Shown here one piece after another: positions 3,320-35,822 of a stretch of 64,000 nucleotides of DNA. The stretch is from an uncultured Myxococcales bacterium (lineage in GTDB: Bacteria > Myxococcota_A > UBA9042 > DTJE01). Location of the stretch: assembly GCA_903936705.1 (NCBI GenBank), contig CAIZWN010000002.1, positions 35,870-99,869 of the forward strand. The letters run 5' to 3'. Numbering within the stretch: the first letter of the stretch is position 1; the number at the start of each line of letters is the position of its first letter. Below the pieces are notes generated by a model. The model was not told where the DNA came from. It saw nothing but the letters and a program-made list of their open reading frames with translations, and did no database searches. Both the position numbers and the translations under genes were made by a program.

Positions 3320-3356
3320 CCCACCGCCGTCGCTGTCACGTGCTAGAATCCGCACG

Positions 3357-3998: not shown

Positions 3999-4222
3999 AG
4001 GCTCACGTGAAACCCTATTTGCCCTCACCGGGCGAGCACGAGCGCTTCCTTGCGCAGGTGGCGACATTTGATTTCAGGTGGCGCTGTCCCGACTGCATTC
4101 ATGTGGCGCCAGCATCCGAAAAATGCAGCCTGGAGTTCCGCACGCAGGACTTGATGGCAGCGACATCGTTCGTTGAAGCCCGTGGAAACTTCACATTCTG
4201 CAAGTATTTCGAGGCTGCGTAA
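3995..4222 (+). CDS. Small cysteine-containing (putative metal-binding) protein
   Basis: The 75-residue protein starts at a GTG that overlaps the previous stop codon (GTGA). It has four cysteines, arranged as CPDC near residue 31, a single C 12 residues later and a final C near the C-terminus (FCKYFEAA). This pattern suggests a small zinc or iron-sulfur site. The coupling to its neighbours and the conserved-looking cysteine spacing support a real gene despite its size. I do not recognise the family. Confidence 0.6.
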   Translation: MKAHVKPYLPSPGEHERFLAQVATFDFRWRCPDCIHVAPASEKCSLEFRTQDLMAATSFVEARGNFTFCKYFEAA

Positions 4223-4239
4223 GCCGGTGGAGGCGTTGC

Positions 4240-5304
4240 GTGCTTGGATCGGCAAAACGCGTTCTGGTCCCAGGTGCTGGCGGTCCGGGCGCCGTGAACC
4301 TTACCAGGGGCCTGCTGGCCGCACCCGAACCTGTGTTCACCGTGGGGTGTGACGCCAGCCCCTATTACATCCATCTGGCCCTGACACACGAAAGGGCACT
4401 GGTACCTCGCTGTTCAGACGAGACAGCTTACATGGACGCGGTCTGCACCTTGATTCGCAACTACCGCCTGAATGCTGTCTTCCCGAACAGCAGTCTCGAA
4501 ATGCTGGTGCTGACGAAAAACCGCGAGCGCCTGGAGGAACTGGGTGCCCGGATGCTGGTGCCGTCCCTGGAAACGCAGCTGATAGCCGCAAGCAAATGGC
4601 AGACGTGGCAGCATTGGCAGGCCGCCGGTATTCCGATACCGCAAACCGTAAGCATTGATAGCGACGATGACATCCAGCGGGCGTTCGACGAGATCCCGAC
4701 GCGGCCAGTCTGGTTCCGAGGTTCCGGCATCCCTGGTCGCGGGATCGGCGGTGGTGCCCTGCCCTGCCGCACCCCGCTGGAGGCGCGCGGCTGGATAGCC
4801 TTTCACGACGGCTTCGGCGCCTTCATCGCATCGGAATACCTGCCGGGCGAAAACCTGACGTGGCTGGGCCTGTTTCGCAACGGGGAGTTGGTCACCAGCC
4901 AGGGCCGTCAGCGTGACGCGTACGTCATCCCGCATGTCAGCCCGTCGGGAATTACCGGCGCGCCAGCCATCAGTCATACGGTGCACCGCAAGGACCTGAA
5001 CGACCTGGGCCTGCGGTGCGTCCTGGCCGTTGATCCGGCATTCCACGGGGTTGCGTTCGTCGATGCAAAGGCGGCTGCTGACGGCTCGCTGAAGCCTACC
5101 GAGGTGAACGCCGGGCGCCTGGGCACGACCCACCACTTCTATTCGGCAGCCGGCGCCAATTTCCCCTGGTGGATGCTTCGGATTGCCTTCCGCGAATCCA
5201 TGCCTGAACTGGCGCTGTTCGACATTCTTCCGGCAGACCTTTACTGGATTCGCACACTTGACGCGGGACCAGTACTGGTGAACAAAACCGACCTGAGTTT
5301 GTAG
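4240..5304 (+). CDS. ATP-grasp enzyme, carbamoyl-phosphate-synthase-like
   Basis: The 354-residue protein starts at GTG 4240 behind a GGTGGAGG ribosome-binding site. The N-terminus is a pre-ATP-grasp Rossmann-like domain (RVLVPGAGGPGAVNLTRGL). It is followed by an ATP-grasp core with ASKWQTWQHWQAAGIPIPQT, the nucleotide-binding segment WFRGSGIPGRGIGGGAL, SEYLPGENLTWLGLF, and a terminal metal-ligand region FVDAKAAADGSLKPTEVNAGR. Such enzymes join a carboxylate to an amine or thiol through an acyl phosphate. The substrate cannot be read from the sequence. It closes a three-gene unit with a secreted protein and a small cysteine protein, and its end is only 9 bp from the convergent gspN stop. Confidence 0.75.
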   Translation: MLGSAKRVLVPGAGGPGAVNLTRGLLAAPEPVFTVGCDASPYYIHLALTHERALVPRCSDETAYMDAVCTLIRNYRLNAVFPNSSLEMLVLTKNRERLEELGARMLVPSLETQLIAASKWQTWQHWQAAGIPIPQTVSIDSDDDIQRAFDEIPTRPVWFRGSGIPGRGIGGGALPCRTPLEARGWIAFHDGFGAFIASEYLPGENLTWLGLFRNGELVTSQGRQRDAYVIPHVSPSGITGAPAISHTVHRKDLNDLGLRCVLAVDPAFHGVAFVDAKAAADGSLKPTEVNAGRLGTTHHFYSAAGANFPWWMLRIAFRESMPELALFDILPADLYWIRTLDAGPVLVNKTDLSL

Positions 5305-5313
5305 GGCTGGTGA

Positions 5314-6828
5314 CTATTCCTGGCCTTCGCCTTCGCCTGCAGCAGGGGCCGCTGCCGGGGCAGGAGCAGCCCCGTCGGATCCTTCCCCCGCTTCCCCGCC
5401 GCCTTCTGGAACCAGGCCTCGGATGCGCGCACGGCCTATTACAGTCGGCATCATGGGTTGCGACCTGGCCGCTGCCTGCGCCGCTGCCTGCGCCGCTGCC
5501 TGCGCCGTAGCGGCTGCATTCGCGGCACCGGTCAGACCCCCTGACATCCCGGCGCCACTGGCAGTATTCTCCGCCGTTGGCAGGGGCTCCTGACGAGGAG
5601 GCTGGGGCGGGATCTGCACTGGCATGGCAGGGGCCTGCGGGGCTGCAGGGGTCGGGCTCGTCGGCGCCGTCCGTGGCACATTCGGAACGACGGGCTTCGA
5701 ACCCGTATCCTTGGCATCTGTCTTGTCGTCAACCTTTGCCGGCAACTTGAAGTCGCCGCCGCGAATCGACGGTTTCTTGGGCTGGCACGATGGGCGCTCG
5801 ACCGTTCCCGAGCACGTAAGCCCCCAGTAGGACCCGGACTGGGCCGAACGCCACTTCGGATCCATGCCCAGGATGGTGCGCAGGAACCTGTTCGGAGTTG
5901 ACACTTCGGTCCCGGCTCGAACCTGCCTGTCGAAGAACGGTTCGCTTAGACTGAACGCCAAATCCACGGTCAAGGCTCCATCCTTGAACGGGCGGGCTGG
6001 CACCAGCCGAATCACCGAATGGCCCTCGACCTGGGCTTTTGCGTCAGATCCGTCCAGGTCGGCCTTTTCGATATGCAGGACTGTCGCGTCGCCGCCCGGA
6101 CCCTTGCGGTCGGCCTTGAAGGCCGGAATGTTCGAACGCTTGTCCAGGTTTATCGCCAGGGTCAGCGTGCCAAGGTCCACGTCGGACAAGCTGATATTTG
6201 CATGCGTCGAACCTCTCAACGTTGGCTTCGGGACGCGAATCCCATCGGCCTTCAGGTCCAGATGCCCCTTGCTGGAGGCCAAACCTCCCTTCAAGTCATA
6301 CGTCATCGTCCCCTTCAGCACAGACAGCTTCCCGAAAAATCTGATTCCGAAGACGGGCATATCGGAAGGCAGCGGAAAATCCTGCGCAGACTCAATTTCG
6401 ACAGTCACGGTCTCGGCAGTTTTCACGACGACAACTGGCCCAAGCACGCCCTCGCCCGAGTAGACCGTGGCCTTCACCTTCAGGTCGCCTAGAAGCAGAC
6501 TTAACAGGCCCAGGGACAGATCCAGCCGGTCGGCCGACAAGGTACGCAGATCCTCGTACGCGGAGCCGTCCGGATTTGTCCCCCGATCCGGCGGCAATTC
6601 GACCTTCAGCCCGGTCAAACGAACGCTGCCGAACCCGCGAATGGACAGATCCTGGATTTTGACGGTCACCCCGCCCTGGGACAGGCGGTTTTCAAGATAC
6701 CCGCGCAGTCGCGAGGCCGGGAAGGTCCAGACCACCGACAGCGCGAACAGCAGCAACCCGAATGCAACGTATCCTGATATGCGGGCGGCCTTTCTTACGA
6801 CCGGTTTCCGGGTCCACTCGAACGTCAT
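5314..6828 (-). CDS. gspN: Type II secretion system protein GspN (AsmA-like inner-membrane protein)
   Basis: The 504-residue protein is the last gene of the gsp operon. A single transmembrane helix at about residues 18-38 is followed by a periplasmic beta-rich domain (LRGYLENRLSQGGVTVKIQDLSIRGFGSVRLTGLKVELP), typical of GspN proteins of deltaproteobacterial systems that belong to the AsmA/DUF748 superfamily. The C-terminal 130 residues are low-complexity: a Pro/Gln-rich stretch (about 390-420), then repeated AQAAAQAAA, then an acidic Gly/Glu tail. ATG 6828 is chosen over the TTG one codon upstream because AAGGAGG precedes it. The domain order and operon position make the identity firm; the tail is unusual. 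Confidence 0.82.
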   Translation of the reverse strand: MTFEWTRKPVVRKAARISGYVAFGLLLFALSVVWTFPASRLRGYLENRLSQGGVTVKIQDLSIRGFGSVRLTGLKVELPPDRGTNPDGSAYEDLRTLSADRLDLSLGLLSLLLGDLKVKATVYSGEGVLGPVVVVKTAETVTVEIESAQDFPLPSDMPVFGIRFFGKLSVLKGTMTYDLKGGLASSKGHLDLKADGIRVPKPTLRGSTHANISLSDVDLGTLTLAINLDKRSNIPAFKADRKGPGGDATVLHIEKADLDGSDAKAQVEGHSVIRLVPARPFKDGALTVDLAFSLSEPFFDRQVRAGTEVSTPNRFLRTILGMDPKWRSAQSGSYWGLTCSGTVERPSCQPKKPSIRGGDFKLPAKVDDKTDAKDTGSKPVVPNVPRTAPTSPTPAAPQAPAMPVQIPPQPPRQEPLPTAENTASGAGMSGGLTGAANAAATAQAAAQAAAQAAARSQPMMPTVIGRARIRGLVPEGGGEAGEGSDGAAPAPAAAPAAGEGEGQE

Positions 6829-6852
6829 CAACCCCTCCTTACCCAGCCGACC

Positions 6853-7551
6853 CTACTCGGTAGCTCCCGAGGCTTCCGTTGCCGCGGCCGGTGTCTCGTC
6901 GCCACCGCCGCCTCCCCCCTGGAACTGGAAGGTCGCTACGGTGACCTGCGCCCGAACGTGCTCCATGTTGTTGAACTTGCGGGCAAGGTCCAGCCTGGTC
7001 ACGAACAGGATCTCCTTGCCCTGTTCCACCTGGTCCAGCAGCGACAGAAGATCTGCGCTGGGAACCTCCTTGAACTCCAGGCCCTGCTCGATCTGGACTA
7101 TACCGGTGGCAGATTCCTTTGATTTGCCCTTGGCCGCCTTCTTCCTGGACTTGCCCACCTCGACCGGGGTGTCGGTCGTCTTTCCCTCGAACGACACTAT
7201 GTCGGCAAGGGTGTCGCCCAGCGCACCAGGCACATCCGAGGACATCGACTGCCTCTTCAGCAGGTCGTTCACCAGCGAGCGAGCCGTCGATTTGTTCCCC
7301 CGGATCGCGTCCTCGATGGCCTTCTTCTGGTCGCTGAGTTCCTTGTATCGCGGCTCCAGGGCGCGGGCCTCGGCCATCACGGTCCTGCCGTGGTCTATCT
7401 CGTCCTGGATCGACCCGAATACCGCTGACATGGCCAGGAAAATGGCCACCAGCACGGTCCCGCAAGCCGCAGCGGCCAGGACAAGAAACAGCCGCCGCTC
7501 GCGCTGCGTCATCCGGGCCACCATGGCGTCGAACGAATCAACCAGTTTCAT
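6853..7551 (-). CDS. gspM: Type II secretion system inner-membrane protein GspM
   Basis: The 232-residue protein has a short cytoplasmic N-terminus (MTQRERRLF), a transmembrane helix at about 20-40 and a long periplasmic coiled-coil followed by a small ferredoxin-like domain. This is the classic bitopic GspM layout, larger than many GspM proteins (about 160-200 residues). It partners with GspL in the inner-membrane platform. It lies 23 bp downstream of gspL and 24 bp upstream of gspN. The C-terminus has a glycine run (QGGGGGGDE). Sequence similarity of GspM proteins is low, so the call rests on topology and operon position. Confidence 0.82.
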   Translation of the reverse strand: MKLVDSFDAMVARMTQRERRLFLVLAAAACGTVLVAIFLAMSAVFGSIQDEIDHGRTVMAEARALEPRYKELSDQKKAIEDAIRGNKSTARSLVNDLLKRQSMSSDVPGALGDTLADIVSFEGKTTDTPVEVGKSRKKAAKGKSKESATGIVQIEQGLEFKEVPSADLLSLLDQVEQGKEILFVTRLDLARKFNNMEHVRAQVTVATFQFQGGGGGGDETPAAATEASGATE

Positions 7552-7574
7552 CGGTTCGAACCCTCCCCGCGCCT

Positions 7575-9305
7575 TCAGTTGGCGGACGCGGCCTTATCCT
7601 TCGAGCCGGTTTCCTTGGCCCCGTCCTTCGCTCCGTCCTTCGCTGCGTCCTTGGCACTGTCCTTGGCAACGTCCTTGGCGCTGTCCTTGACCTTCTTGGC
7701 AGCATCCTTGGTGGTGCAATCGACCGTCATTCGCAACGTGAATCGCTGCCAGCCCTGGTGTCGCTGAAACTGGATGCGCTCGGTACTTTCGGACACCACC
7801 TCGCTGATGCACGAATCAGCGTTGAGGTTTGCGACAAAGTGGTCCAGGGTTTCGATTGTCTCGGCCTCGCCACGAATCGTGGCCTGCCGCTGTTCTATCC
7901 GCAGGTTCTCCAGTTCAACCGCCCAGGCACCTTCCGCCGCAGCAGGCGCCGATTCGGTACCGTCCTCACCACTCTTTACCGCAGCCGGGGCGCTGTTGAC
8001 GGCATGACCGACGTCCATCATGGCCTTCGAGATGCGCTGCAACGTGCCCACCGCAGTCCACCTGGGGAAGATCCGCACGTCCTCCTCGGACACCGATTTC
8101 AGGGTCTTCAGCACGGTGTCGAAACTGTCCTTCTCGGCGCCAAGGACCTCCTTGGAAAAGGCCTTCAACTCGGCAATGCCGGCATCGCGTTCGGCCCTCA
8201 AACCCATGTATCTGACGACGCCTCTACCGATACCCAGCGACGCGAACAGCGCCAGGATCACGAAGAAATATATCGCCCGCTCACGAAATACGCTGCTTGC
8301 GCCCTCGGTGGCAAAGACGCCCGATCGCAGGTTCAGACTGCCGGGACCTCCACCGCTTGCGGTACCCAATGCCAGCGCAAGGGCCTTTGTCATCGCCGGC
8401 GACAATCCTTGACATGAGGACGCACCTGGAATCGGCAAGCGGCCCGGATCCAGGATATCGCACGGAAGGTTCAACGCCTCCTGCAGCGGACCTGCCAGCA
8501 CGAACGCATCGGGCCCGGCCACAAGGACACGCCCTACCGACGCCCCACCCTCGGCCGCCACAGCCGCGCTGAGGACCACTTCGCGCAGGAATGCGGCTGC
8601 GACATCCCCGCCGCCTACCACCGGTTCGCCAAGGCGCACCGCCCTTGTCAGTACCGATTGCTGCCCCCTGGCGACGGCGATCTCCACGAGGTCGTCATCG
8701 ACCCAAACCAGCATCTGAACCTCGCTGGCCCCGTCGTCAGCAACACTTGCGGTGAACGGCAACAGGCTCAGAAGGCACTGCCCCTCCACACCCACATGTG
8801 CCGGTTCCAGACCGTCAACCCGCGCCGCATCAAGGAATTCGCGAAACTCGTTCATCGGCACGGCAACCGCCAGAACCTCGGTCCCGGCAGCCCCTTCGAT
8901 CGGAACCTTCTCGTAGGCACAGTGGATCTGGTCGGGATTAACGGGCACCAACCCGATCATCTGGAACGGCAAGGCCGCCTCGACCTGCGAGGCCTTCTTG
9001 AACGGCAGGGACATGCGCCGAACGAACGCCCGGTCGCCAGGATAAGCCAGCACCACCGTATCGCCGGGCGCCGGAGGAGGCGTCACACAGTTTGCCACAA
9101 GGTCCCAGGTACGCTGAAGCGTTCGCGAATCCTCGGCGGACTCGTCCGGAGGTTCCTCGGCGCCTTCCCAGGCCATGACCGTCGGCTTGGCCCTGCGCGA
9201 CATCTCGAAGGCCGCCTTCAACTCGAAACGCCTCAGCCGGGTCTCGATGACAGCCACGCGGACCATCTCGTTCCCGACACAAATCCCGAAGACCCGGTGA
9301 CCCAT
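7575..9305 (-). CDS. gspL: Type II secretion system protein GspL (PilM-like cytoplasmic domain)
   Basis: The 576-residue protein has an N-terminal actin-like (PilM/GspL) cytoplasmic domain (about 1-330), beginning FGICVGNEMVRVAVIETRLRRFELKAAF, a transmembrane helix near 348-366, and a periplasmic ferredoxin-like domain after about 380. It links the GspE ATPase to the membrane platform. ATG 9305 is chosen because GAGGTGAGC precedes it; an upstream GTG adds two residues. The last 45 residues are a Lys/Asp/Ala-rich repeat (KDSAKDVAKDSAKDAAKDGA) encoded by a 12-bp tandem repeat, which standard GspL proteins lack. It is 10 bp downstream of gspK. Confidence 0.87.
   Translation of the reverse strand: MGHRVFGICVGNEMVRVAVIETRLRRFELKAAFEMSRRAKPTVMAWEGAEEPPDESAEDSRTLQRTWDLVANCVTPPPAPGDTVVLAYPGDRAFVRRMSLPFKKASQVEAALPFQMIGLVPVNPDQIHCAYEKVPIEGAAGTEVLAVAVPMNEFREFLDAARVDGLEPAHVGVEGQCLLSLLPFTASVADDGASEVQMLVWVDDDLVEIAVARGQQSVLTRAVRLGEPVVGGGDVAAAFLREVVLSAAVAAEGGASVGRVLVAGPDAFVLAGPLQEALNLPCDILDPGRLPIPGASSCQGLSPAMTKALALALGTASGGGPGSLNLRSGVFATEGASSVFRERAIYFFVILALFASLGIGRGVVRYMGLRAERDAGIAELKAFSKEVLGAEKDSFDTVLKTLKSVSEEDVRIFPRWTAVGTLQRISKAMMDVGHAVNSAPAAVKSGEDGTESAPAAAEGAWAVELENLRIEQRQATIRGEAETIETLDHFVANLNADSCISEVVSESTERIQFQRHQGWQRFTLRMTVDCTTKDAAKKVKDSAKDVAKDSAKDAAKDGAKDGAKETGSKDKAASAN
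7623..7694 (-). repeat. 12-bp tandem repeat encoding the GspL C-terminal tail
   Basis: Six consecutive 12-bp units of the form GTCCTTSGCNNN (plus strand) encode the tetrapeptide series K-D-x-A at the C-terminus of GspL. The units differ mainly in their last three bases, so the array is an imperfect tandem duplication in frame. Copy-number change would alter tail length by four residues per unit. Confidence 0.85.
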
Positions 9306-25970: not shown

Positions 25971-27128
25971 ATGGATCTGCTCCCACGTTTATTGCAGGCG
26001 CCGGCGTCCAGTTTCTTCCTATTCGGGCCTCGCGGGACCGGCAAATCACTGTGGGTCAGGACGGCGTTTCCCGATGCCGTGCGGATCGACCTGCTGGACC
26101 CGGCAGAGTTCCACTCGCTGCAGGCGCGCCCGGAACGCCTGCTGGAAAGGGTCCGTGGCATGCGCGATGCCGGTGTCGTGATCATTGACGAGGTCCAGAA
26201 GGTCCCGGAACTTCTTTCGGCGGTTCACCTGCTGATCGAGGAAAATCCTGCCCGCCGATTTGTTCTGACCGGGTCCAGCGCCAGAAAGCTGAAGCGGGCC
26301 GGAGTGGACCTGCTGGCCGGACGCGCAGCCATGCGTTCGATGCACCCGTTCATGGCGGCCGAACTAGGCAGCCTGTTCGACCTGACGACAGCCCTTGAAA
26401 CAGGAATGGTGCCTCTGGTGCGGGCGGCCGTCGATCCCCGCGAGGCGCTTGCTGCATATGTCGGACTGTACCTGCGCGAGGAGATCCAGGCCGAGGGTCT
26501 GGTCAGGCAGTTGCGCGCCTTTGGCAGATTCCTGGAGGCGATCAGCTTTTCTCACGGATCGGTTCTGAACGTGGCCAACGTATCCCGCGAATGCGAGGTC
26601 GAAAGGACAACTGTAGAGGGCTATCTGGCCGTTCTGGAGGACCTGCTGCTTGCGTTCCGGATTCCGGTGTTCACCAAGCGGGCACGCCGCCAGATGACCA
26701 CTCACCCCAAGTTCTACCTGTTCGATGCCGGGCTGTTTCGCAGCCTGCGCCCCTCCGGCCCCCTGGACCAGCCTGAAGCCATCGGGGGGGCTGCGCTGGA
26801 GGGTCTGGTGGCACAGCACTTGCGGACCTGGATCTCGCTGCGAGGCGGTTCAGAAAACCTGTATTTCTGGCGGACCACCGACGCAGTCGAAGTGGACTTC
26901 GTAATCTACGGGCCAGGCGGCTTCTGGGCGATCGAAGTCAAGAACACAGCCAGGGTGCGTCCCGACGACCTTGCCGGACTGCGCGCCTTCGGCACCGACT
27001 ACCCCGAGGCGAAAAGAATCCTCCTGCACCGCGGACCGCACGCGCTGGAGATCGACGGAATTCAGTGTCTTCGGGTCGATGAATTCCTGCTGTCACTGGT
27101 CCCTGAACTGGGACCAGGAGACGCATAG
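25971..27128 (+). CDS. AAA ATPase with DUF4143 domain
   Basis: The 385-residue protein has an N-terminal AAA_14-type ATPase domain with Walker A GPRGTGKS and Walker B VVIIDEVQKVPE, and the sensor LTGSSARKLKR. A helical DUF4143 domain follows, ending in a PD-(D/E)xK-like fold (AVEVDFVIYGPGGFWAIEVKN, with D and E-x-K in place). Proteins of this type are widespread in bacteria and archaea and usually uncharacterised; some are near toxin-antitoxin loci. ATG 25971 is used because it starts the conserved domain and follows the promoter at 25911. Its last 56 codons lie within the first copy of a 259-bp direct repeat that recurs at 29524. Confidence 0.85.
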   Translation: MDLLPRLLQAPASSFFLFGPRGTGKSLWVRTAFPDAVRIDLLDPAEFHSLQARPERLLERVRGMRDAGVVIIDEVQKVPELLSAVHLLIEENPARRFVLTGSSARKLKRAGVDLLAGRAAMRSMHPFMAAELGSLFDLTTALETGMVPLVRAAVDPREALAAYVGLYLREEIQAEGLVRQLRAFGRFLEAISFSHGSVLNVANVSRECEVERTTVEGYLAVLEDLLLAFRIPVFTKRARRQMTTHPKFYLFDAGLFRSLRPSGPLDQPEAIGGAALEGLVAQHLRTWISLRGGSENLYFWRTTDAVEVDFVIYGPGGFWAIEVKNTARVRPDDLAGLRAFGTDYPEAKRILLHRGPHALEIDGIQCLRVDEFLLSLVPELGPGDA

Positions 27129-27219
27129 GCTGGGAAGAATGGGGTTCACCGAGCGGTTACTGTTCTGGCGCTCCATACTGGCCGAAAACGGGCCGATGGA
27201 TTTTTGAGGAGGCACAGGC
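26961..27219 (+). repeat. 259-bp direct repeat, copy 1
   Basis: This segment covers the last 56 codons of the DUF4143 ATPase gene plus 91 bp downstream. It recurs at 29524-29782 with no gaps and 10 mismatches by my count (about 96% identity). Downstream of the stop it contains a mini-ORF (MGFTERLLFWRS..., 22 codons) that is also open in copy 2. The repeat ends exactly where the truncated HEPN remnant begins. Confidence 0.9.
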
Positions 27220-27527: not shown

Positions 27528-28226
27528 TCAGATCCCGAAAACCTCGATCTTCGCCAGCCACTCGGCGAAGTGGGGGCAACGGGCCCGCAATGTTGGAAGC
27601 CCGATCTTATCGGCAACCAGAGGACCGGCAGAGGCCTTGCAGCCGTCGTATTCCGGGATTTCCTTGATGATTCGCTTCGACGGTGCGGTTGCGGCGCCAT
27701 CGTCGATCACCTCGGGGGCCAGTTGCTGCGACAGGTTGATCAGGCGCCCGATGGCAGCGTTGTGGTCGATGAACTCGCAGTCCAACTTCGTCGGGTCAGC
27801 GAACACAAGCGCCTCGAATTCGTGCAGTTGGATGTACGGGATGAACCGCTCGGGCGGCAGGTAGTACCCAAGTTCATTCAGAATGTCCTTGCTGAGGGCC
27901 GCCTCCAACTCGGTCACTCGGTCCACGGGAGCCTTGGTGGCTGCGGCAGCGAAGCCGGGGAAGTCACGAGGAAGGGCGTAGAGGTCGAACATCGTGGTAA
28001 AGCGTGCGTCGTCGTTCTTGTCCTGGTGCATCCGGCGCAGCAGGTCCTGCCGGAGGTGATCGTACGACCTTCCGCCACCCTTTCCCTTCCGCCCGAGTCC
28101 CAGGCGAGTCGTGACCATCGTGACATCGGCGAACACGTTCAGGCCCCCGAGGTAGGGACCCAGCGTCCGGTTCACAAAGTTCTCTTCGGATAGCCCTTCG
28201 ACTATGAAGTGGAGGCGGGCGCTCAA
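27528..28226 (-). CDS. DUF4276 (Toprim-like) protein, probable nuclease partner of AAA ATPase
   Basis: The 232-residue protein starts at TTG 28226, overlapping the ATPase stop as TTGA. The N-terminus LHFIVEGLSEENFVNRTLGPYLG has the conserved glutamate block of Toprim-like folds, and TTMFDLYALPRDFPGF supplies the acidic motif typical of DUF4276. IQLHEFEALVFADP is another family hallmark. Such proteins are commonly paired with AAA15/RecF-like ATPases, an arrangement reminiscent of a split OLD nuclease and suspected to act in phage defence. The nuclease role is inferred from family and context. Confidence 0.78.
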   Translation of the reverse strand: MSARLHFIVEGLSEENFVNRTLGPYLGGLNVFADVTMVTTRLGLGRKGKGGGRSYDHLRQDLLRRMHQDKNDDARFTTMFDLYALPRDFPGFAAAATKAPVDRVTELEAALSKDILNELGYYLPPERFIPYIQLHEFEALVFADPTKLDCEFIDHNAAIGRLINLSQQLAPEVIDDGAATAPSKRIIKEIPEYDGCKASAGPLVADKIGLPTLRARCPHFAEWLAKIEVFGI

Positions 28227-29347
28227 GACGGCCTACCTCCGATGACGCCCTTCTCCCACAGTTCGCCGGTCGAGTACTCCTCCAGCCATTCCTTCAGCGG
28301 CTCCGGGTCCAGCCGACGGAACAGCGATTCGCGCCCCCGCCGCTCGACAACGACGATCTCCTCCGGCTTGAAGGCATCGACAAACCGCGGCGACTGGGTC
28401 GCTACGATGACCTGCCGCGAGAGCGACGTGCTGCGGACCAGGCCGGCGATCACATCGAGGCCCATAGGGTGCAGGCCGAGTTCGGGCTCATCAAGGATCA
28501 GAACCCAGGGAAGCCCCTTTGGAGGCTGAAGCAGCAACGTCACCAGCGCGATCATTCGCAGCATGCCATCCGACGCCTGGCTGGCGTTGAACAGCAGGTC
28601 GGTGCCACGCTCCCGCCACTGCAGGAGGATTGAACCCTCGATCGGTTCAAGTACGAAGTCGTCGAAGAACGGCGCGATCAGCCGCACCGTGTTCACGATC
28701 CGGTGGTAGTAGGCCAGCTCGTGGATGCGCATCCGTAGAAGGAACGCGGAAAGGTTCGCCCCGTCCTCCCGCAGGAGGTGGTTGTCCTCAACGTTCCATC
28801 GGGCCTTAATCCGGGCCGTGCCGGACGTGTTGTGGAACTGGTAAACGCGGCAGTTGCGTAGTAGGGAATGGATGACGCCAGCGGTCTTCTTCCCGTGCGC
28901 CTTCACGCGTGCGGCATGAGGACCCAACTCGCTCTCGCGATTCCCCTGGCCGAGCGTCGTCCACTGGGCGTCGGCGATGTCGCCTTTCGCGGCAGACAAG
29001 AACCGGAACGCCTCGTCATCGAAGTAAAGGACGTCGCCAGCTCCGTGCGACAGGCTGAACCGGTACTGGTTGACGCCCGCGACCGTCTTGAACGTCAGGC
29101 ATGCCCCAATGCTCCTGGTGACCGCAGCGCCGTCGAACAGGGTCGCGTTTGCGCCCCCAACATCCTCGAGCAGGTAGGTCTGAAGATGCTGCGACGACAG
29201 GTGACTCAAGGCACGGAAGAACCCCACAAAATTCGACTTGCCCGCTCCGTTTGCGCCCACAAGAACAGTCAGGGCGTCCAGCGGGAAGTCCTTCAGTTCC
29301 CGAATCGACTTGAACCCGTGGATCTCTATGGACGTCAATCGGTTCAT
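28223..29347 (-). CDS. RecF/AAA15-like ABC-type ATPase (OLD-like defence ATPase)
   Basis: The 374-residue protein starts MNRLTSIEIHGFKSIRELKD and has Walker A VLVGANGAGKSNFVGFF at about 32-45, an ABC-like signature region (FNASQASDGMLRMIAL), Walker B WVLILDEPELGLHPMGL and the downstream switch VIVATQSPRFVDAF. This is the SMC/RecF-type AAA_21 architecture found in OLD-family and other anti-phage ATPases. It is the first gene of a two-gene operon with DUF4276, coupled through TTGA, and is preceded by its own promoter. Confidence 0.86.
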   Translation of the reverse strand: MNRLTSIEIHGFKSIRELKDFPLDALTVLVGANGAGKSNFVGFFRALSHLSSQHLQTYLLEDVGGANATLFDGAAVTRSIGACLTFKTVAGVNQYRFSLSHGAGDVLYFDDEAFRFLSAAKGDIADAQWTTLGQGNRESELGPHAARVKAHGKKTAGVIHSLLRNCRVYQFHNTSGTARIKARWNVEDNHLLREDGANLSAFLLRMRIHELAYYHRIVNTVRLIAPFFDDFVLEPIEGSILLQWRERGTDLLFNASQASDGMLRMIALVTLLLQPPKGLPWVLILDEPELGLHPMGLDVIAGLVRSTSLSRQVIVATQSPRFVDAFKPEEIVVVERRGRESLFRRLDPEPLKEWLEEYSTGELWEKGVIGGRPS

Positions 29348-29380
29348 GCAACTGCCAACAAAAGCCCCGTCGCCAGGGCG

Positions 29381-29410
29381 ATCCTAGACCAAATCTTGGT
29401 GGGAAGCCAA
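29381..29410 (-). promoter_or_regulatory. Putative promoter of the ATPase/DUF4276 operon
   Basis: On the minus strand TTGGCT (29405-29410) and TAGGAT (29381-29386) are 18 bp apart and 34 bp upstream of the ATPase ATG. The hexamers each match four of six consensus bases. Confidence 0.4.
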
Positions 29411-29523
29411 GGTTTGAACGTCAGGCTGCGACCGGCGTGGACCGCGTCGGGGTCGACGCCGGGACTGGCCGGCGCCTACTCGCCAGGCCCGGGCGCAGCG
29501 TCACTGCGCGTGGCCGGCGCTGG

Positions 29524-29782
29524 CCCGAGGACCTTTCCGGACTGCGCGCCTTCGGCACCGACTACCCCGAGGCGAAAAGAATCCTCCTGCACCGCGGACC
29601 GCAGGCGCTGGAGATCGACGGAATTCCGTGCCTTCGGGTCGATGAATTCCTTCTGTCACTGGTCCCTGAACGGGGACCTGGAGACGCATAGGCTGGGAAG
29701 AATGGGGTTCACCGAGCGGTTACTGTTCTGGCGCTCCATACAGGCCGAAAACGGGCCGATGGACTTTTGAGGAGGCACAGGC
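29524..29782 (+). repeat. 259-bp direct repeat, copy 2 (DUF4143 ATPase 3' remnant)
   Basis: A gap-free second copy of 26961-27219 with 10 mismatches. It retains the last DUF4143 codons in frame but has no ATPase body, so it is a gene remnant. Just before it, 29502-29528 resembles 25779-25805 upstream of the intact ATPase gene (25 of about 27 bases). The copy therefore looks like a deletion derivative of an ATPase locus joined at a CCCGA(C/G)G microhomology. From 29783 to 30033 I see no gene. Confidence 0.85.
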
Positions 29783-30033
29783 AGATTCCTGAACTCGGTT
29801 CGTAAGCGAGGCATGGGGACCCGCCGAGAGCCGATGAGGGCGGCCAGACAACCGAGGGCTCTCACCCTAAGGGACCCAGTTGTCGGGTAGCCGAATCAGC
29901 AGGTCATTTGTCCGAGCCGGGCGCACGGTAGTATCCGTTCGCCCGGCCCGGCCCAGGGGCGCGGACCCATGGCCAATGCCTTTGCGCGGGCCGCCGGACC
30001 TTGATCCGGACGGCAGCGGGCCGCAGCATCGGG

Positions 30034-30158
30034 CTCAGACAGCGGGCCCCGTTGTTCGCGTTGCGGTTGTCCGGCGTGTCGTTGTTGCGATTCGACGATC
30101 GCAGGTTCGACGCGTCGTTGTTGAAACTGCCGCCACGGATCACGCGGTTGTCGCCGTT
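30034..30158 (-). repeat. DGR template repeat (TR)
   Basis: A 125-bp template repeat starts 64 bp after the reverse-transcriptase stop. Read on the minus strand it begins AACGGCGACAAC and contains eleven AAC codons, the classic DGR signature because adenine mutagenesis of AAC can reach 15 residues without making a stop. Its last 18 bases (GGGGCCCGCTGTCTGAG region) are identical to the variable repeat and would be the IMH* element. The 3' flank then differs (GAGC versus GAGG). Confidence 0.95.
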
Positions 30159-30222
30159 GTCGATCCGTCCCCGACAGGACCGTAGCACGCAGTCGACAAA
30201 TCGTCGATGACAGGTTCCACGC

Positions 30223-31248
30223 TTACGGCCACAAGGCCATGGCAAGCCGCCTGGTATTCGAACCTGCGTCGGCGGCTGCCGCGTGACCCAGCCTGGTTTC
30301 GATCCCGGCACGCACGCGGTCAGGGTCTTCGCAACTCCCATCACGGATTGCGGCACAGGCATCACGCACCCGCCTCTGGATACGCACGAAAGTCTGCCTG
30401 CACGGAACTACAGCGCCTGGATATACCCGAAAACCCAGGAAACCTATTCCCTCTTTGGCCGGGACCAGCCGGGTTGCCGCCGGCTTCAACGTCAGCCCCA
30501 GGCCGCACACCACGTCGTCGATACATCGCCAGGCATCCCACAGCCGCCGCTTTGACGGACCGAACACCACGATATCGTCCATGTATCTGACGTGGTCACA
30601 GTCGGGATAATCCTTCCGCAAGCACCGTTCGACAGGATCAAGGCCCACGTTGCCCAGAAACTGGCTGGTCAACGCGCCTATCGGTATGGAACGGCCACGG
30701 GGCGAATCATTCCCAGGTGCCCCGTCCAGAACGCGGCCCATAAGGCGCAGATAGTTTGCCGGAACACCCATGTCATGCAGAATTCCCAGCAGCGAACCAT
30801 GCGGAACTTCAGGAAAATAGTGACGAATATCCAGCGATAGTGCCCAGTCGTGAACACGCAAAAATTCCTGGGATCGACCAACCGCGCGGTGCAGTCCCTT
30901 GCCCTTCCGGCAAGCATACGATTCCGGATCCAGCAGTTTCTCGACCCCAGACTCCAGGGCCGCCACCAACGCATGATGGACCACACGATCGGGAAACGCG
31001 GTCTCACAAACGGTCCGGGGCTTCGGGTCTCGAATGGCAAATGTCCGAACCGGCAGAGGTACCCAGGTGTCGTTCAAAAGGCGTCTTGACAGGTCGCACA
31101 GCGACGGACCGCAAGACAGCATGAAGGCTGCAGCACCGGGGTCGCGGCGATGCCCTTGAAGAGCCCTGCCGTACGCCAGGTACAAACCCCCGACCGAGAA
31201 CGTCCTGTTGAACGAAGGGAAAATGACCGCTTCCCTCGCAACGTTCAC
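30223..31248 (-). CDS. DGR reverse transcriptase
   Basis: The 341-residue enzyme starts at GTG 31248, which overlaps the avd stop (GTGA) and has GGGAGG just upstream; an upstream in-frame ATG at 31302 is less likely. Reverse-transcriptase motifs are in order: PVRTFAIRDPKPRTVCETAF, SYACRKGKGLHRAV, WALSLDIRHYFPEV (first catalytic Asp), IPIGALTSQFLGNVGLDPVE with the DGR-type SQ motif 4, YMDDIVVFG (catalytic YMDD) and GIGFLGFRVYPGAV. There is no maturase or endonuclease domain, as expected for DGR enzymes. It copies the template RNA with low fidelity at adenines, together with Avd. Confidence 0.95.
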   Translation of the reverse strand: MNVAREAVIFPSFNRTFSVGGLYLAYGRALQGHRRDPGAAAFMLSCGPSLCDLSRRLLNDTWVPLPVRTFAIRDPKPRTVCETAFPDRVVHHALVAALESGVEKLLDPESYACRKGKGLHRAVGRSQEFLRVHDWALSLDIRHYFPEVPHGSLLGILHDMGVPANYLRLMGRVLDGAPGNDSPRGRSIPIGALTSQFLGNVGLDPVERCLRKDYPDCDHVRYMDDIVVFGPSKRRLWDAWRCIDDVVCGLGLTLKPAATRLVPAKEGIGFLGFRVYPGAVVPCRQTFVRIQRRVRDACAAIRDGSCEDPDRVRAGIETRLGHAAAADAGSNTRRLAMALWP

Positions 31249-31619
31249 CGGTCCTCCCGCTGGCCCGAGTCCCGGATCCAGCCACCCAGCATCCTTCCAC
31301 ACTCGTCAATTGCCGTCATCGAATGCTCATGAGCACCAGGGGACATGACCTCCACGCTACGCGCCACCTCCAACAGAATCCGAAGACGGCTTACACGGAC
31401 GTTCGCCTCCTTCAGCAGGTCCTGCTTCTGACGCCGGTACGACGCCTCGGTCAACAGGGTCATCACATCCAGGCACTCGTTGTCGATCCGGTGTACCAGG
31501 CTGTGGCGCCAGTGTCGGGGCATCCGTTCCGTGGTCTTCAGCAACCATACCGTCAGGTCCAGCCACCGCGTCACCAGCGGCAGCCGCGCCAGGTCGCGAC
31601 GATCGAGATCCGGTTCCAT
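31245..31619 (-). CDS. avd: Avd-like DGR accessory protein
   Basis: The 124-residue, strongly helical, basic protein (LPLVTRWLDLTVWLLKTTER MPRHWRHSLVHRID, then RRQKQDLLKEANVRVSRLRILLEVAR) matches the four-helix-bundle Avd family, related to 23S rRNA intervening-sequence proteins. Avd pentamers bind the reverse transcriptase and template RNA and are needed for mutagenic cDNA synthesis. It ends in a GTGA overlap with the reverse-transcriptase gene. Its ATG follows an in-frame TGA directly, and it overlaps the open frame of the HRDC gene by 263 bp, which is odd. Confidence 0.85.
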   Translation of the reverse strand: MEPDLDRRDLARLPLVTRWLDLTVWLLKTTERMPRHWRHSLVHRIDNECLDVMTLLTEASYRRQKQDLLKEANVRVSRLRILLEVARSVEVMSPGAHEHSMTAIDECGRMLGGWIRDSGQREDR

Positions 31620-32112
31620 TCAGCATCTCCAGCAAAATGTCGCCGTAGGATGCAATCTTCCTGTCGCCAATGCCCTTGACCTCGGCCAGACCGGCCTTGG
31701 TTCCAGGTCTGCGCCGGACCAACTCGACCAGAGTCGCATCGGCGAAAATCATGTAGGGGGCCCTGCCCTCGCGGTTCGATGCCTCGCGCCGCCAACCACG
31801 CAGGCGGTCATACAGGGCCCTTTCGCGTTCGTCCATGTCGGACAGAAGTTCGCGGATCGCCTCCTGGCGTGCGCGATCAATCACGGTTCCCTTGTTGCCA
31901 TCGGCATCTTCGCCAGGTACGAGGCTCTCGGCTGCCTGACGCCGTCGCCATGTCAAACACAGGGACCAGAAGGGACGCCCTGCATGCGAGAACGAAAACG
32001 TGTCGCACGACAGACACTCCTTGTCGACAAGAAAATCCCTGACCCGTTCGCTGGGAAAACCCTCCAGCAACGGGTCAAAGGCCAGGGTCAGAATCGTCAA
32101 CTCGATCGCCAT
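31357..32112 (-). CDS. HRDC-domain DGR accessory protein
   Basis: The 251-codon frame has an N-terminal region of unknown fold (MAIELTILTLAFDPLLEGFP, CLSCDTFSFSHAGRPFWSLC) and an HRDC domain at about 94-166 (ALYDRLRGWRREASNREGRA PYMIFADATLVELVRRRPGT KAGLAEVKGIGDRKIASYGD). HRDC proteins are a known DGR accessory type, presumed to bind nucleic acid during retrohoming. The last 85 codons overlap avd in another frame and are low-complexity, so the true C-terminus may be near residue 165. A one-base shift there would meet the TGA just before the avd ATG. Confidence 0.78.
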   Translation of the reverse strand: MAIELTILTLAFDPLLEGFPSERVRDFLVDKECLSCDTFSFSHAGRPFWSLCLTWRRRQAAESLVPGEDADGNKGTVIDRARQEAIRELLSDMDERERALYDRLRGWRREASNREGRAPYMIFADATLVELVRRRPGTKAGLAEVKGIGDRKIASYGDILLEMLNGTGSRSSRPGAAAAGDAVAGPDGMVAEDHGTDAPTLAPQPGTPDRQRVPGCDDPVDRGVVPASEAGPAEGGERPCKPSSDSVGGGA

Positions 32113-32160
32113 ACGTCACCCAGCGCACCGCGCCGCCCCCGCATCAGCGGTGACGGCGCG

Positions 32161-32220
32161 CACGGCTCCGGCTTGGCCACAGGGTCGCGCCGCTGCGCAG
32201 GCGACCCAGCCGGAGCCGTG
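32161..32220. promoter_or_regulatory. Large inverted repeat (hairpin or cruciform) downstream of the DGR variable repeat
   Basis: CACGGCTCCGGCT (32161-32173) pairs perfectly with AGCCGGAGCCGTG (32208-32220), and inside it GGGTCGC (32182-32188) pairs with GCGACCC (32201-32207), leaving an 8-base bulge on one side. It lies in the gap between target gene and HRDC gene, about 66 bp beyond the variable repeat. Hairpin or cruciform structures after the variable repeat promote homing in studied DGRs. There is no T-run on either side, so it is not a classic terminator. Confidence 0.75.
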
Positions 32221-32272
32221 AGCCCCAGTAGGCCCAAAGGGAAAGAGTGTTAAAGTTCGCAAGTGAAAAGCC

Positions 32273-33415
32273 TCATGGTATGGGCCTCAGACAGCGGGCC
32301 CCGAAGTACGCGTAGCGGTAGTCCGGCGTGCCGGTGTAGCGATTCGACGACCGCAGGAACGACGCGACGATGAGGAAACTGCCGCCACGGATCACGCGGC
32401 CGTCGCCGGTATCCACCCAGGCACTGCCATCCGTCGGCGCTCCCGTGTAGTTCGAGTGGTACCAATCCTCCACCCATTCCCAAACGTTACCTGACATGTC
32501 CAACGCCCCACTCCAGGACACGCCAGCCGTCTTCGACCCGACAGCAAGAGTCCCTCCCGAGCTGCACCCATAACCAGCTGTCGTTCCGGCCTCGTTGAAC
32601 ACCGCCGTATTGTTCGCGCACGTCGGCGCGGGCGTACCCCCCCACGGGTACTTCCGGTGCGTCGGACCTGTCGCCGCGTACTCCCACTCGGCCTCGGACG
32701 GCAGACGGCCAAACAGCCACGTGCATACCGCACCCGCCTGGGCCCACGTCAACCCGTTCTGAGGGTGCGTCGAACGCCCGTTCGCCGACGTGTTCGTTCC
32801 TTGCGTACCGGCCCAATCTTGGGTGCTGGGTGGGGTACAGGTCCCTGGTGAATCCGCCTGGCAAGCCTCGTACTGAAGGACGGTCACCTCGTACTTCCCT
32901 ATCAGGTAGGCGGAGGCGAACGTCACCGTATGATTCGGGTCCTCGTCGGTGCTACGTGAAGATTCAGTCGATGGCGACCCCATCGTGAACGAACCCGCCG
33001 GAACGTGCACCCACACATCCCACTGCTTCCAGCCGGTAGTGTCAACATTCGCGTACTCGCAATGATCCTGGGCATTGCATGTGGCGGTGTACCCGGAGAT
33101 AACAGCGCATGTTGCGCCGTTGCAGGTATCCACGACGATGTCCTGGCCGAGATCGCTGCCGATGTCCTGGCCGAGGTCGCTGCCGATATCCTGGCCGGGG
33201 TCATCCGTCAATGGCGGTTCAACGCCTGGGCACTGGCACCAGCCGGTGTATCCAGCGCCTGCTGGCGCTGCGATGCAGGTGCAGCCTTGGCCGCAGGATC
33301 CGCCTGGGTTTTCGCAGGTGAACCGGCGGGTTCCAAGCTGGTCGCCTATGCATCCTGCCGACAGGGAGGCCGCGGACAGGACCGCGGCGACCATGGCGAA
33401 TCTGATCATGTACAT
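32273..33415 (-). CDS. DGR target: surface lipoprotein with FGE-sulfatase/C-type-lectin variable domain
   Basis: The 380-residue protein starts at ATG 33415 behind GGCGAGG. The lipobox LSAGC places the lipidated Cys at residue 22. A cysteine-rich segment (about 30-65) and a QDIGSDLG tandem linker lead to an FGE-sulfatase domain from about 135 to the end (VHVPAGSFTMGSPSTESSRS, IGKYEVTVLQYEAC, LPSEAEWEYAATGPTHRKYP, MSGNVWEWVEDWY, VIRGGSF, FGARCLRP). The C-terminal 40 residues are encoded by the variable repeat; thirteen differ from the template's translation. The catalytic GFRC-type motif is GARC here, typical of DGR ligand-binding proteins rather than enzymes. It is anchored in a membrane, probably facing outward like other DGR lipoproteins. 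Confidence 0.93.
   Translation of the reverse strand: MYMIRFAMVAAVLSAASLSAGCIGDQLGTRRFTCENPGGSCGQGCTCIAAPAGAGYTGWCQCPGVEPPLTDDPGQDIGSDLGQDIGSDLGQDIVVDTCNGATCAVISGYTATCNAQDHCEYANVDTTGWKQWDVWVHVPAGSFTMGSPSTESSRSTDEDPNHTVTFASAYLIGKYEVTVLQYEACQADSPGTCTPPSTQDWAGTQGTNTSANGRSTHPQNGLTWAQAGAVCTWLFGRLPSEAEWEYAATGPTHRKYPWGGTPAPTCANNTAVFNEAGTTAGYGCSSGGTLAVGSKTAGVSWSGALDMSGNVWEWVEDWYHSNYTGAPTDGSAWVDTGDGRVIRGGSFLIVASFLRSSNRYTGTPDYRYAYFGARCLRPIP
32286..32410 (-). repeat. DGR variable repeat (VR)
   Basis: A 125-bp segment at the 3' end of the target gene, ending 10 bp before the stop codon. Gap-free alignment with the template repeat at 30034-30158 shows 18 substitutions, all at template adenines (coding strand): 12 to T, 3 to C and 3 to G. 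All eleven AAC codons of the template have changed. Thirteen residues are altered and one change is silent (CGA to CGG). The conserved 3' end is the presumed IMH. Confidence 0.96.
33137..33205 (-). repeat. 24-bp tandem repeat in the linker of the DGR target gene
   Basis: Two near-identical 24-bp units and a partial third encode QDIGSDLG-QDIGSDLG-QDIVVD. It spaces the lipid anchor from the variable domain. Confidence 0.85.
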
Positions 33416-33432
33416 GTTCAAACCTCGCCATA

Positions 33433-35385
33433 TCATCGGATGTTCACCATGACTACTGCCCCGCCAGGTAGTGGCACGACACCGCCCGCCACCGACATCA
33501 CTGGCTTCGGGCCCGTTTCGGCATGGCTGGCGGCCGGACGATGAACCAGGTCAACGATCCCCCAGACCAGGCCCGCCAGGGTGGCGGCACCGCCGATGGC
33601 GTACATTGCCGTGGATGCATTCTGGTAGGTTTTTGCCTGGGATTGCAGAGCTGCCGCACGCGACCGGTCGATTCGTGACGTGCCGTCGGGGTAGGTGCCG
33701 GAAGACGCCAGCTTGCCGGATTCGTTGTGCGCGGCCCAGGTCAGCACACCTCCGGTTACAAGCCCTGCAAGGCCGGTACCGAAGATCACCCATGCACCGA
33801 CCGACGTCTTATGGGCTGGCGCTGGTGCCGCAACCCCCGGGACCTGGTGTTGCGATGGGCCCGAGGCAGTTGGATTCAGCGGACCCGCCGATGGCAGTGC
33901 CACGGCCTTCCTGCGTCCGGGGGCCGAAATCGACAGCGCCAGGGGCCGACGTTCGTTGTGCACCACGTTCACCGAGGCAGAGGCCTCGCCGTCGGGACAC
34001 ACGACCCTGACCTTGTGAGGCACGGCCAGGACCTCCTGCTTCCATGGCGTCTGGCCCACGGCCTTCCCGTCAAACGATACCTCACCCTCGCAGGGGGTCC
34101 CGTCATCGTATGCCGATGTAACTACCAGCAGGCCCATTTTGCCTTTCAGCGTCACGGACATCTTCACGATCTCGCGGTTCAGCACCGTCGCCCGCTGGAC
34201 CGCATCCCCGTAACCCTCCAGGCCAAGTTTCACAACCGCGATTCCGGGTTGCAGGGTCGGGAACGTGAACGGAGTCTTCTGTCCGGTCGCCTCGTCGTTC
34301 AGCGTGATCGCTGCACCTGGCGGGTTGCTGTCCACGACCAGGGACCCGAAATTCTGCTGCAGAGCTGCCTTCACAACTGCGGTTTTGCCGTCCTCGACCA
34401 CGACCGAACTTTCGTGTCTCAGGTAGTTCGCCTTTTCTACCCGAACAACATAGCTTGCCGAGGGCTTCGGGTCGGCGCTCCACGGTGTCGTTCCAACCCG
34501 CTCGCCGTCCAGGCTGACTTCCGCGCCAGACGGGTCGCTTGTGACCTCCAGGCGACCGAACGCCGGAGGCAGGGTCAGGGTCACGCGCTTCCCGGTCTGG
34601 TCCAGGTCGATCTCCTGGCGAGCCGGGCGGTACAGTTTTCCGATCTCGGCGACCAGGACGTACCGGCCAACCATCTGCTCGATCTGCAACGGCGCCTTGC
34701 CCATCTCCTTGCCGTTCAGCGTGATGATTGCACCCGTCGGCTCGGACTTGATGACCAGAAACCCGGTCTGGTCGGTCACCTGGTTCACGATGCTTTGGCC
34801 CTTGTCGATGATGATGCCGCTTTCGACCGTGCCGACGCCAAGCAGGACCGGTGTCCGCCCTGGCCCAGGCTGGGATGCCGGGGCAGCAGTCCCCGTCAGT
34901 TTCTCGATAGCCGCGCCCAGCGAGGCCACCAGACCGTCTTCCGTGCACGCTCCGGATGCCGTTGACGCCGTCTCGCTGGTCGCCCGACCCAGGTCGAAAA
35001 CGTTCAGGCTGATCATGCACTGCGAACCAACCTTGGCGATTCGGGTAGCCAGCGTCTTCTGGGCTGCAACCTCCCTGCCCAACGCGATCTGGCAGGACTC
35101 GTCATAGCATTCCTTGTAGGACTCGGTCTTGGCCTCGGCAAGGCGAGCCTTCAACTGGGCACGCGGCACAACCTGGAACTTGCCGCTCTCGGCAAGTCGT
35201 GACGCCACGTAGTCACTCAGGCTGTCCACGACATGGGCGGCCAGTTGAATGCCCTTGGTCTCGACGTCAAATACCGCAATGATGGGGGCGCTGCCCTCGG
35301 CCTGGCACAGGCCCGGAACCGTCAGCACCCCTGCGGCAACCAGGGGCCAGCATCGAAACCATCGAACGGACCTGCGAACCGCCAT
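33433..35385 (-). CDS. PEGA-domain repeat protein, envelope-anchored
   Basis: The 650-residue protein starts at ATG 35385 behind GGGGGGACTT and has a signal sequence ending near GLCQAEG. A first domain (about 30-170: IIAVFDVETKGIQLAAHVVDSLSDYVASRLAESGKFQVV) resembles the CsgG/TolB-like N-terminal domain found in myxobacterial proteins. It is followed by four PEGA-type repeats (for example LVIKSEPTGAIITLNGKEMG, LEVTSDPSGAEVSLDGERVG, LVVDSNPPGAAITLNDEATG). Near the C-terminus are two transmembrane helices (SVGAWVIFGTGLAGLVTGGV and AMYAIGGAATLAGLVWGIVD). The DGR target gene starts 17 bp downstream, so the two may be cotranscribed. Confidence 0.8.
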   Translation of the reverse strand: MAVRRSVRWFRCWPLVAAGVLTVPGLCQAEGSAPIIAVFDVETKGIQLAAHVVDSLSDYVASRLAESGKFQVVPRAQLKARLAEAKTESYKECYDESCQIALGREVAAQKTLATRIAKVGSQCMISLNVFDLGRATSETASTASGACTEDGLVASLGAAIEKLTGTAAPASQPGPGRTPVLLGVGTVESGIIIDKGQSIVNQVTDQTGFLVIKSEPTGAIITLNGKEMGKAPLQIEQMVGRYVLVAEIGKLYRPARQEIDLDQTGKRVTLTLPPAFGRLEVTSDPSGAEVSLDGERVGTTPWSADPKPSASYVVRVEKANYLRHESSVVVEDGKTAVVKAALQQNFGSLVVDSNPPGAAITLNDEATGQKTPFTFPTLQPGIAVVKLGLEGYGDAVQRATVLNREIVKMSVTLKGKMGLLVVTSAYDDGTPCEGEVSFDGKAVGQTPWKQEVLAVPHKVRVVCPDGEASASVNVVHNERRPLALSISAPGRRKAVALPSAGPLNPTASGPSQHQVPGVAAPAPAHKTSVGAWVIFGTGLAGLVTGGVLTWAAHNESGKLASSGTYPDGTSRIDRSRAAALQSQAKTYQNASTAMYAIGGAATLAGLVWGIVDLVHRPAASHAETGPKPVMSVAGGVVPLPGGAVVMVNIR

Positions 35386-35415
35386 GGCAAGTCCCCCCTT
35401 GGTAAACCGCGGCAT

Positions 35416-35421
35416 ATTGTA
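35416..35421 (-). promoter_or_regulatory. Extended -10 promoter element upstream of the PEGA/DGR-target operon
   Basis: On the minus strand TGGTACAAT gives a TGn-extended -10 (TACAAT, 35416-35421) about 30 bp upstream of the start codon. No good -35 is seen. It may drive the PEGA gene and, by read-through, the DGR target. Confidence 0.4.
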
Positions 35422-35564
35422 CCAGCAGTTGGGTTGGGCAGTATGATCGGCTTCACAGCGATAATTCGTCCAGGGATTCAGCCGAACGCGACCTGGTTCC
35501 ACGTTTTCATTGATTTGAGTTTGATGGTGGTAAACTCGACTCCGTTGTCGGCAGGTTGGCTTTG

Positions 35565-35822
35565 ATGGCACCAACCCTACTTCGGGAAGGTCCCTACCGC
35601 TTCTTCTTCTACCTCAACGAGGGACAGGAACCGGCACACGTTCATGTGCAGGAGGGCAACAAGACAGCTAAATTCTGGCTTCAGCCGTTTGGCCTTGCGT
35701 CCTCCAAGCACTTTCCCGCCCATCAACTGGCTGAATTGACAAGAATCATTTCCCTTAACCGGGAAACTTTCCTGGAGGTTTGGAATGAGCGCTTTCCCCG
35801 AGCTGGCCGAGACCCTCGCTGA
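35565..35822 (+). CDS. DUF4160 protein
   Basis: The 85-residue protein matches DUF4160: PTLLREGPYRFFFYLNEGQE PAHVHVQEGNKTAKFWLQPF, then NRETFLEVWNERF. DUF4160 genes are regularly followed by DUF2442 genes, as here, and the pair is regarded as a possible toxin-antitoxin-like or mobile-region module of unknown function. ATG 35565 is chosen from family alignment; a TTG at 35556 is in frame. The 3' end overlaps the next gene by 38 bp. Confidence 0.8.
   Translation: MAPTLLREGPYRFFFYLNEGQEPAHVHVQEGNKTAKFWLQPFGLASSKHFPAHQLAELTRIISLNRETFLEVWNERFPRAGRDPR

Follow-up and report, generated by a model that had tools for sequence, protein, structure and literature searches.

The window described here, a stretch of 64,000 nucleotides from an uncultured Myxococcales bacterium, carries a 125-nucleotide repeat both downstream of a reverse transcriptase (RT) gene and at the 3′ end of a second gene, which raises the question of whether it contains a working diversity-generating retroelement (DGR) and how far the action of this element extends in the genome. 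The window very probably holds a complete DGR, in which the template repeat (TR) differs at adenines only from the end of a gene for an FGE-fold protein, the variable repeat (VR), and in which complementary DNA (cDNA) is likely rewriting the predicted ligand-binding face of this protein. A preliminary description of the locus had proposed a complete DGR with adenine-only differences and an FGE-fold target; the analysis supports this and places the target in the FGE/C-type-lectin fold.

The TR (30034-30158) and the VR (32286-32410), both on the minus strand, align without gaps over 125 nucleotides at a register offset of 2252. Mismatches are located at 18 of the 125 positions, every one of them an adenine in the TR, and none of the 92 non-adenine template positions differs. 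In total, 18 of the 33 template adenines were found to be altered (11 A>T, 4 A>G and 3 A>C) and 15 to be unchanged; the hypergeometric chance of all 18 mismatches falling on adenines is 4.3e-13. In the VR frame, 11 of 11 AAC codons of the TR are altered, and 14 VR codons are changed in total, 13 of them non-synonymously and one synonymously. The realignment returned the same counts as the preliminary description, including the eleven altered AAC codons and the 13 varied residues, and its repeat boundaries are correct, since the first non-adenine mismatches outside the repeat lie at C30159 (5′ side) and C30033 (3′ side). An artefact of the assembly, which consists of 84 contigs, or a chimera of two strains is extremely improbable as the source of this pattern: differences restricted to template adenines cannot arise from random assembly error (p 4e-13), and the 90%-identity clusters of the target (P0001) and of the RT (P0121) stand for 13 and 5 contigs, respectively.

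The genes of the minus strand are arranged in the order PEGA-domain gene, FGE-fold target, HRDC gene, Avd, RT and TR. Families were assigned with Pfam and NCBIfam, and gene overlaps were read from the sequence. The open reading frame of the RT (30223-31302, minus strand) has its likely start at a GTG at 31248, which overlaps the stop codon of Avd as GTGA and fits the 341 amino acids of the database copy P0121. The motifs YMDD (residues 240-243) and LTSQ (residues 211-214, as IGxLTSQ) are invariant across an alignment of 16 related RTs, and the best PDB sequence match is the reverse transcriptase 8ub7. The YMDD and SQ motifs described earlier were thereby recovered, and the motifs of the catalytic site, a break in which had been named as speaking against the element, were found intact. 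The RT also matches the general RT model of PADLOC (1.3e-32) and the group II intron model of NCBIfam (TIGR04416), the latter with 100.4 bits and far below the cut-off of 300; the LTSQ motif, the neighbouring Avd, the TR/VR pair and the best PDB chain argue against an RT of another class, such as a group II intron maturase or a defence RT beside a coincidental repeat, and this explanation is practically out of the question.

The Avd-like and HRDC-domain genes reported earlier between target and RT were both assigned to families. Avd (31245-31619, minus strand) matches PF22296 (6e-15) and NF033474 (93 bits, cut-off 80), and the HRDC-domain gene (31357-32112, minus strand) matches PF00570 (2e-19) with its domain at residues 98-163. 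The HRDC frame has no stop codon ahead of Avd and extends 263 nucleotides into it (31357-31619) in a different frame, which is either a real overlap or the consequence of a lost stop codon.

The target gene (32273-33436, minus strand) can start at 33436 or 33415; its database copy P0001 comprises 380 amino acids. The FGE-sulfatase fold given in the preliminary description stands (PF03781, 6e-50), and the lipoprotein character is a prediction from a lipobox-like LSAGC read by eye. A predicted structure of the target matches the solved DGR variable proteins TvpA, TaqVP and Mtd. The earlier span of 30034-33415 has correct repeat boundaries and omits the PEGA-domain gene (33433-35574, minus strand; assigned by Pfam), which is located directly upstream of the target and whose stop codon overlaps one possible target start as ATGA (33433-33436).

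From these parts, the following course of events can be proposed. The TR would be transcribed into RNA, which the RT together with Avd would copy with errors at adenines. The cDNA would then replace the end of the target gene by retrohoming and redraw the codons of the predicted ligand-binding face, and the product would be a lipoprotein displayed at the cell surface, where it may partner the PEGA protein encoded just upstream. On other contigs, VRs would likewise be edited in trans from the same TR. The adenine-only differences had been regarded earlier as direct evidence of retrohoming; the differences hold, and the retrohoming itself we infer from the sequence.

The element does not stand alone: the genome holds three more such cassettes, and VRs in other genes also match the template of the window. 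In the genome (G000, 4.85 Mb) four DGR RTs were detected, each beside Avd and HRDC, on the contigs C2 (the window), C5, C68 and C12. The RTs of C5, C68 and C12 are 36-38% identical to that of the window, and the closest two, those of C5 and C68, share 54% identity. A fifth RT match on C46 (27%, E 3.5e-6) was not counted, as its contig has no Avd or HRDC match. A scan of genome contigs with a single RT query found no relative; with an RT alignment as query, at least 80 matches were obtained, of which 80 were kept.

The templates of C2 and C12 were searched in the whole genome, and those of C5 and C68 were compared with selected loci only. For the best segments of the C2 template, the adenine/non-adenine differences are 18/0 in cis, 26/2 on C79, 16/2 at C68:254.9k and 18/7 at an end of a frame on C28. 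The C5 template gave 17/0 in cis, 14/2 on C58 and 17/4 and 15/4 at two further C28 ends, the C68 template 20/0 in cis and 18/3 on C22, and the C12 template 16/8 in cis and 18/12 on C21. A wider VR scan with 25 sources (24 loci and the window) covered the places of all 32 FGE-sulfatase matches of the genome. Here, non-adenine identity between a VR and its own template is at least 0.91 in 8 cases and 0.71-0.89 in 6 weaker ones; templates compared with a TR or VR from a different cassette reach 0.60-0.70.

The 3′ edge of the window TR (30030-30039, minus strand) resembles an IMH* (initiation of mutagenic homing) site and reads CTGAGC in the TR and CTGAGG in the VR, the differing bases being C at 30033 and G at 32285. 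This last base is C in all four TRs of the genome, G in 11 of the 12 VR-like ends and A in C21. In pairs from relatives, the difference between AGC (TR) and AGG (VR) recurs in most, not all, cases, and the C/G difference at 30033/32285 is a candidate IMH*/IMH mark.

Editing in trans is best seen at C79, where the VR ends a frame of 3,189 codons (L093:2950-12519). This VR keeps 85 of 87 non-adenine template positions when compared with the cis VR (last 14 nucleotides excluded), and its non-adenine identity of 98% compares with 82% in the upstream FGE domain (612 of 747 positions identical to the cis target; p 2e-5). The identity of the downstream 100 nucleotides is 0.72 against 0.70 after shuffling, i.e., at chance level. 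At C58, the non-adenine identity of the VR is 0.98 compared to 0.90 upstream (p 0.017), with 0.68 downstream against 0.70 shuffled, and at C22 the corresponding values are 0.95 and 0.77 (p 1e-5), with 0.79 against 0.73. Since the FGE domains targeted in cis and in trans are all homologous, the VR-bearing genes could be ordinary duplicates, but this is unlikely, as identity at C79, C58 and C22 is higher in the VR than upstream of it and is at or near chance downstream. Furthermore, adenine sites changed in both VRs of a pair share their bases about as often as expected: 13 shared bases were seen against 11.1 expected for the three cleaner C2 VRs (three pairs), and 29 against 24.3 for all six C2 pairs. 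The adenines therefore appear to be drawn largely independently between VRs, and the combination of VR-limited identity at C79 with independently randomised adenines is the mark of editing in trans. The TR of the window is likely to edit VRs in two more genes, those at C79 and C68:254.9k, in which most of the changes lie at template adenines. One template tied to several VRs within one genome provides a natural test of trans homing, with diverged flanks at C79.

A locus on C28 (L054, C28:46000-60000) contains one frame of 1,935 codons with four FGE domains (2283-8090). The ends match the C5, C2, C5 and C2 templates alternately, with non-adenine identities of 0.89, 0.76, 0.83 and 0.84. Three of these ends reach 0.83-0.92 against the cis VRs, compared to 0.78-0.84 in the flanking domain. 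The four ends keep only 76-89% of the non-adenine template positions and were left out of the count of active VRs. The available text on Marichromatium purpuratum 984 describes a 3366-bp open reading frame with tandem FGE paralogues and three VRs, which its authors considered a possible artefact (PMC3521204). The C28 frame differs in having four FGE domains, with ends that match two templates alternately, and weakly.

Several results weigh against a cassette that is active in cis and in trans. At C68:254.9k, the non-adenine identity is 0.98 in the VR and 0.57 upstream, and the downstream 100 nucleotides are 93% identical, so that a grafted or duplicated 3′ module explains part of the similarity; VR identity alone does not establish trans homing there, and its use as proof at this locus was dropped. 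The VR on C21 is of the same sort (0.82 against 0.62 upstream of it, with 0.95 downstream, relative to the C12 cis target), and both loci favour ordinary duplication. Over all 14 VR pairs that share a TR, from four templates, 68 shared bases were seen against 58.6 expected, a slight excess. The C28 ends appear decayed and may be remnants or targets of other templates. A search of the same-genus genomes G001 and G002 for the window TR gave no match at E 1e-5. Among homologues, conservation is also low at some VR positions that are not altered (S359 17%, S364 30% and L383 38%). The DGR of Bordetella phage BPP-1 has a short stem-loop directly 3′ of its VR, and no such element was seen in the fold of 32140-32290.

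The lack of a TR match at E 1e-5 in the same-genus genomes and the decayed appearance of the C28 VRs would suit a relict element, silent today, in which the TR/VR difference was left behind by past homing. This explanation is nevertheless improbable: all cassette genes are open with intact catalytic motifs, the absence of any difference at the 92 non-adenine positions means that TR and VR have not drifted apart since the last homing, and in the C5 and C68 cassettes the cis targets are just as free of non-adenine differences. The preferred reading is that of a complete and probably active DGR.

Apart from the stem-loop, which was not seen directly 3′ of the VR, the window cassette differs from that of BPP-1 in its location in a cellular genome, its HRDC gene and its predicted lipoprotein target. 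An inverted repeat is located 3′ of the target stop codon at 32155-32226, with arms of 22 nucleotides (32155-32176 and 32205-32226) that are 86% complementary, at a distance of 59 nucleotides from the VR end. The DNA fold of 32140-32290 has a z of -4.3, and in it the VR end pairs with a 7-nucleotide stretch about 45 nucleotides further on. The inverted repeat is also conserved 3′ of the target at C68:254.9k.

The latter target (L051:6623-9010) is 61% identical to the window PEGA protein over 706 aligned positions, best across the N-terminal PEGA part, and its VR-bearing FGE domain replaces the C-terminus of the PEGA homologue. The occurrence as a gene pair in the window and as a fused protein at C68:254.9k suggests that the PEGA protein and the window target work together. 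The overlap of the two genes, together with the fusion elsewhere, names a likely partner for the diversified binder.

The DGR targets of the C68 cassette (L049:5859-7970) and on C22 (L057:5801-7918) carry a putative caspase-like N-terminus, which matches NCBIfam NF047832 below threshold (3.5e-22 and 8.8e-22; 78.9 and 77.6 bits, under the cut-off of 140 bits). For this N-terminus, no Pfam match was obtained at E values up to 1 for either target, and no PDB sequence match for that of C68. In the available parts of the report on Thiohalocapsa PB-PSB1, DGRs are proposed to diversify the sensors of conflict systems (PMC10907252), and the predicted caspase-like N-termini fit this idea.

Template adenines are conserved between cassettes. 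All 27 adenines of the C68 template are also A in the C5 template, compared to an agreement at 67 of the 100 remaining positions. In a set of 55 anchored templates, 1083 directed comparisons fall at 0.55-0.65 non-adenine identity, and in 1013 of them identity is higher at adenines than elsewhere. These comparisons depend on one another, and AAC repeats increase the number of chance matches. Where the C12 template is involved, the excess is small or absent. The pattern is consistent with selection that keeps these sites mutable.

GAC-rich templates are found in the C12 cassette and its relatives in G007 and G027, and here guanines are changed as well. In three such TR/VR pairs (L050 on C12, 391-520 and 2605-2734; L207; L115), chosen after a G>T pattern had been noticed and counted without the last 12 nucleotides, template guanines directly 5′ of an adenine read G in 21 cases, T in 16 and A or C in none, whereas other template guanines are unchanged in 72 of 72 cases (Fisher p 2e-9). 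Eight of the T lie beside a changed and eight beside an unchanged adenine; apart from this, one C and one T are changed. The remote C21 VR, which shows many other changes against the C12 TR and lies outside the three-pair count, has three C, one T and one A where template guanines precede adenines and does not fit a change to T only.

For comparison, a set of 113 pairs was compiled by excluding the C21 and C28 pairs, skipping exact repeats and dropping one more of 114; the identical L115 and L180 were counted once. From the comparison that gave the C21 counts, L080 was dropped as it has the sequence of L122. As the 113 pairs include some VR-VR and wrong-strand pairs, rates were taken from the 76 other clean pairs that pass the filter. 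In these, guanines before adenines are changed in 28 of 425 cases (T 11, A 10, C 7), compared to 18 of 1703 other guanines.

Drift of the TR from AAC to GAC after the last homing was rejected as the cause of the G>T changes: it predicts A at about 30% of the sites (6 of 20 first adenines of AA are kept in these three pairs), and A was seen at 0 of 37 (P 2e-6). In addition, GAC-rich templates occur in six genomes (G000, G001, G004, G007 with two, G009 and G027), so that recent template drift is no explanation. Non-adenine substitutions in DGRs in general, with G more often changed to A, are described in the available text of a 2019 survey (PMC6642488), and a 2026 study of sequence context, as far as its text is available, deals with template adenines (PMC12875486). 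No GA rule is named in the titles or abstract beginnings found by the literature search, which for the most part did not extend to subscription papers. Tentatively, and with somewhat less than even confidence, it is proposed that the four HRDC/Avd DGRs form a network acting both in cis and in trans on surface and caspase-linked FGE domains, and that one branch would use a two-letter code (A to any base, G before A to T), by which Asp codons would turn into codons for Tyr, Phe, Ser, Cys, Val, Ala or Gly and never into stop codons. If real, the GAC branch would break the adenine-only rule for DGRs.

The cassette type is already known from T. denticola, and its setting here is unusually rich. The available text on the T. 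denticola DGR describes FGE-fold lipoprotein targets, an HRDC gene and remote targets (PMC4891356). An HRDC accessory gene and an FGE lipoprotein target (here with the lipobox read by eye) are common to both, whereas the HRDC gene is reported to lie between TR and RT in T. denticola and lies, together with Avd, between target and RT in the window. Four cassettes per genome and the PEGA gene that overlaps the target further distinguish the system described here. With Thiohalocapsa PB-PSB1, for which the accessible portions of the report give nine loci and 15 targets, it shares several diverged DGRs per genome, trans targets, FGE domains, multi-VR targets and the discussed caspase-type effectors (PMC10907252). 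It has fewer loci, and HRDC and PEGA have no mention in the main text of that report.

Outside of the cassette, a two-gene candidate anti-phage system (HEC-01A/HEC-01B) was predicted at 27528-29347 by PADLOC (1e-125 and 7e-67). On its two sides lie 26971-27207 and the end of 28868-29770, stretches that are similar to each other and by eye resemble the 3′ end of an ATPase gene.

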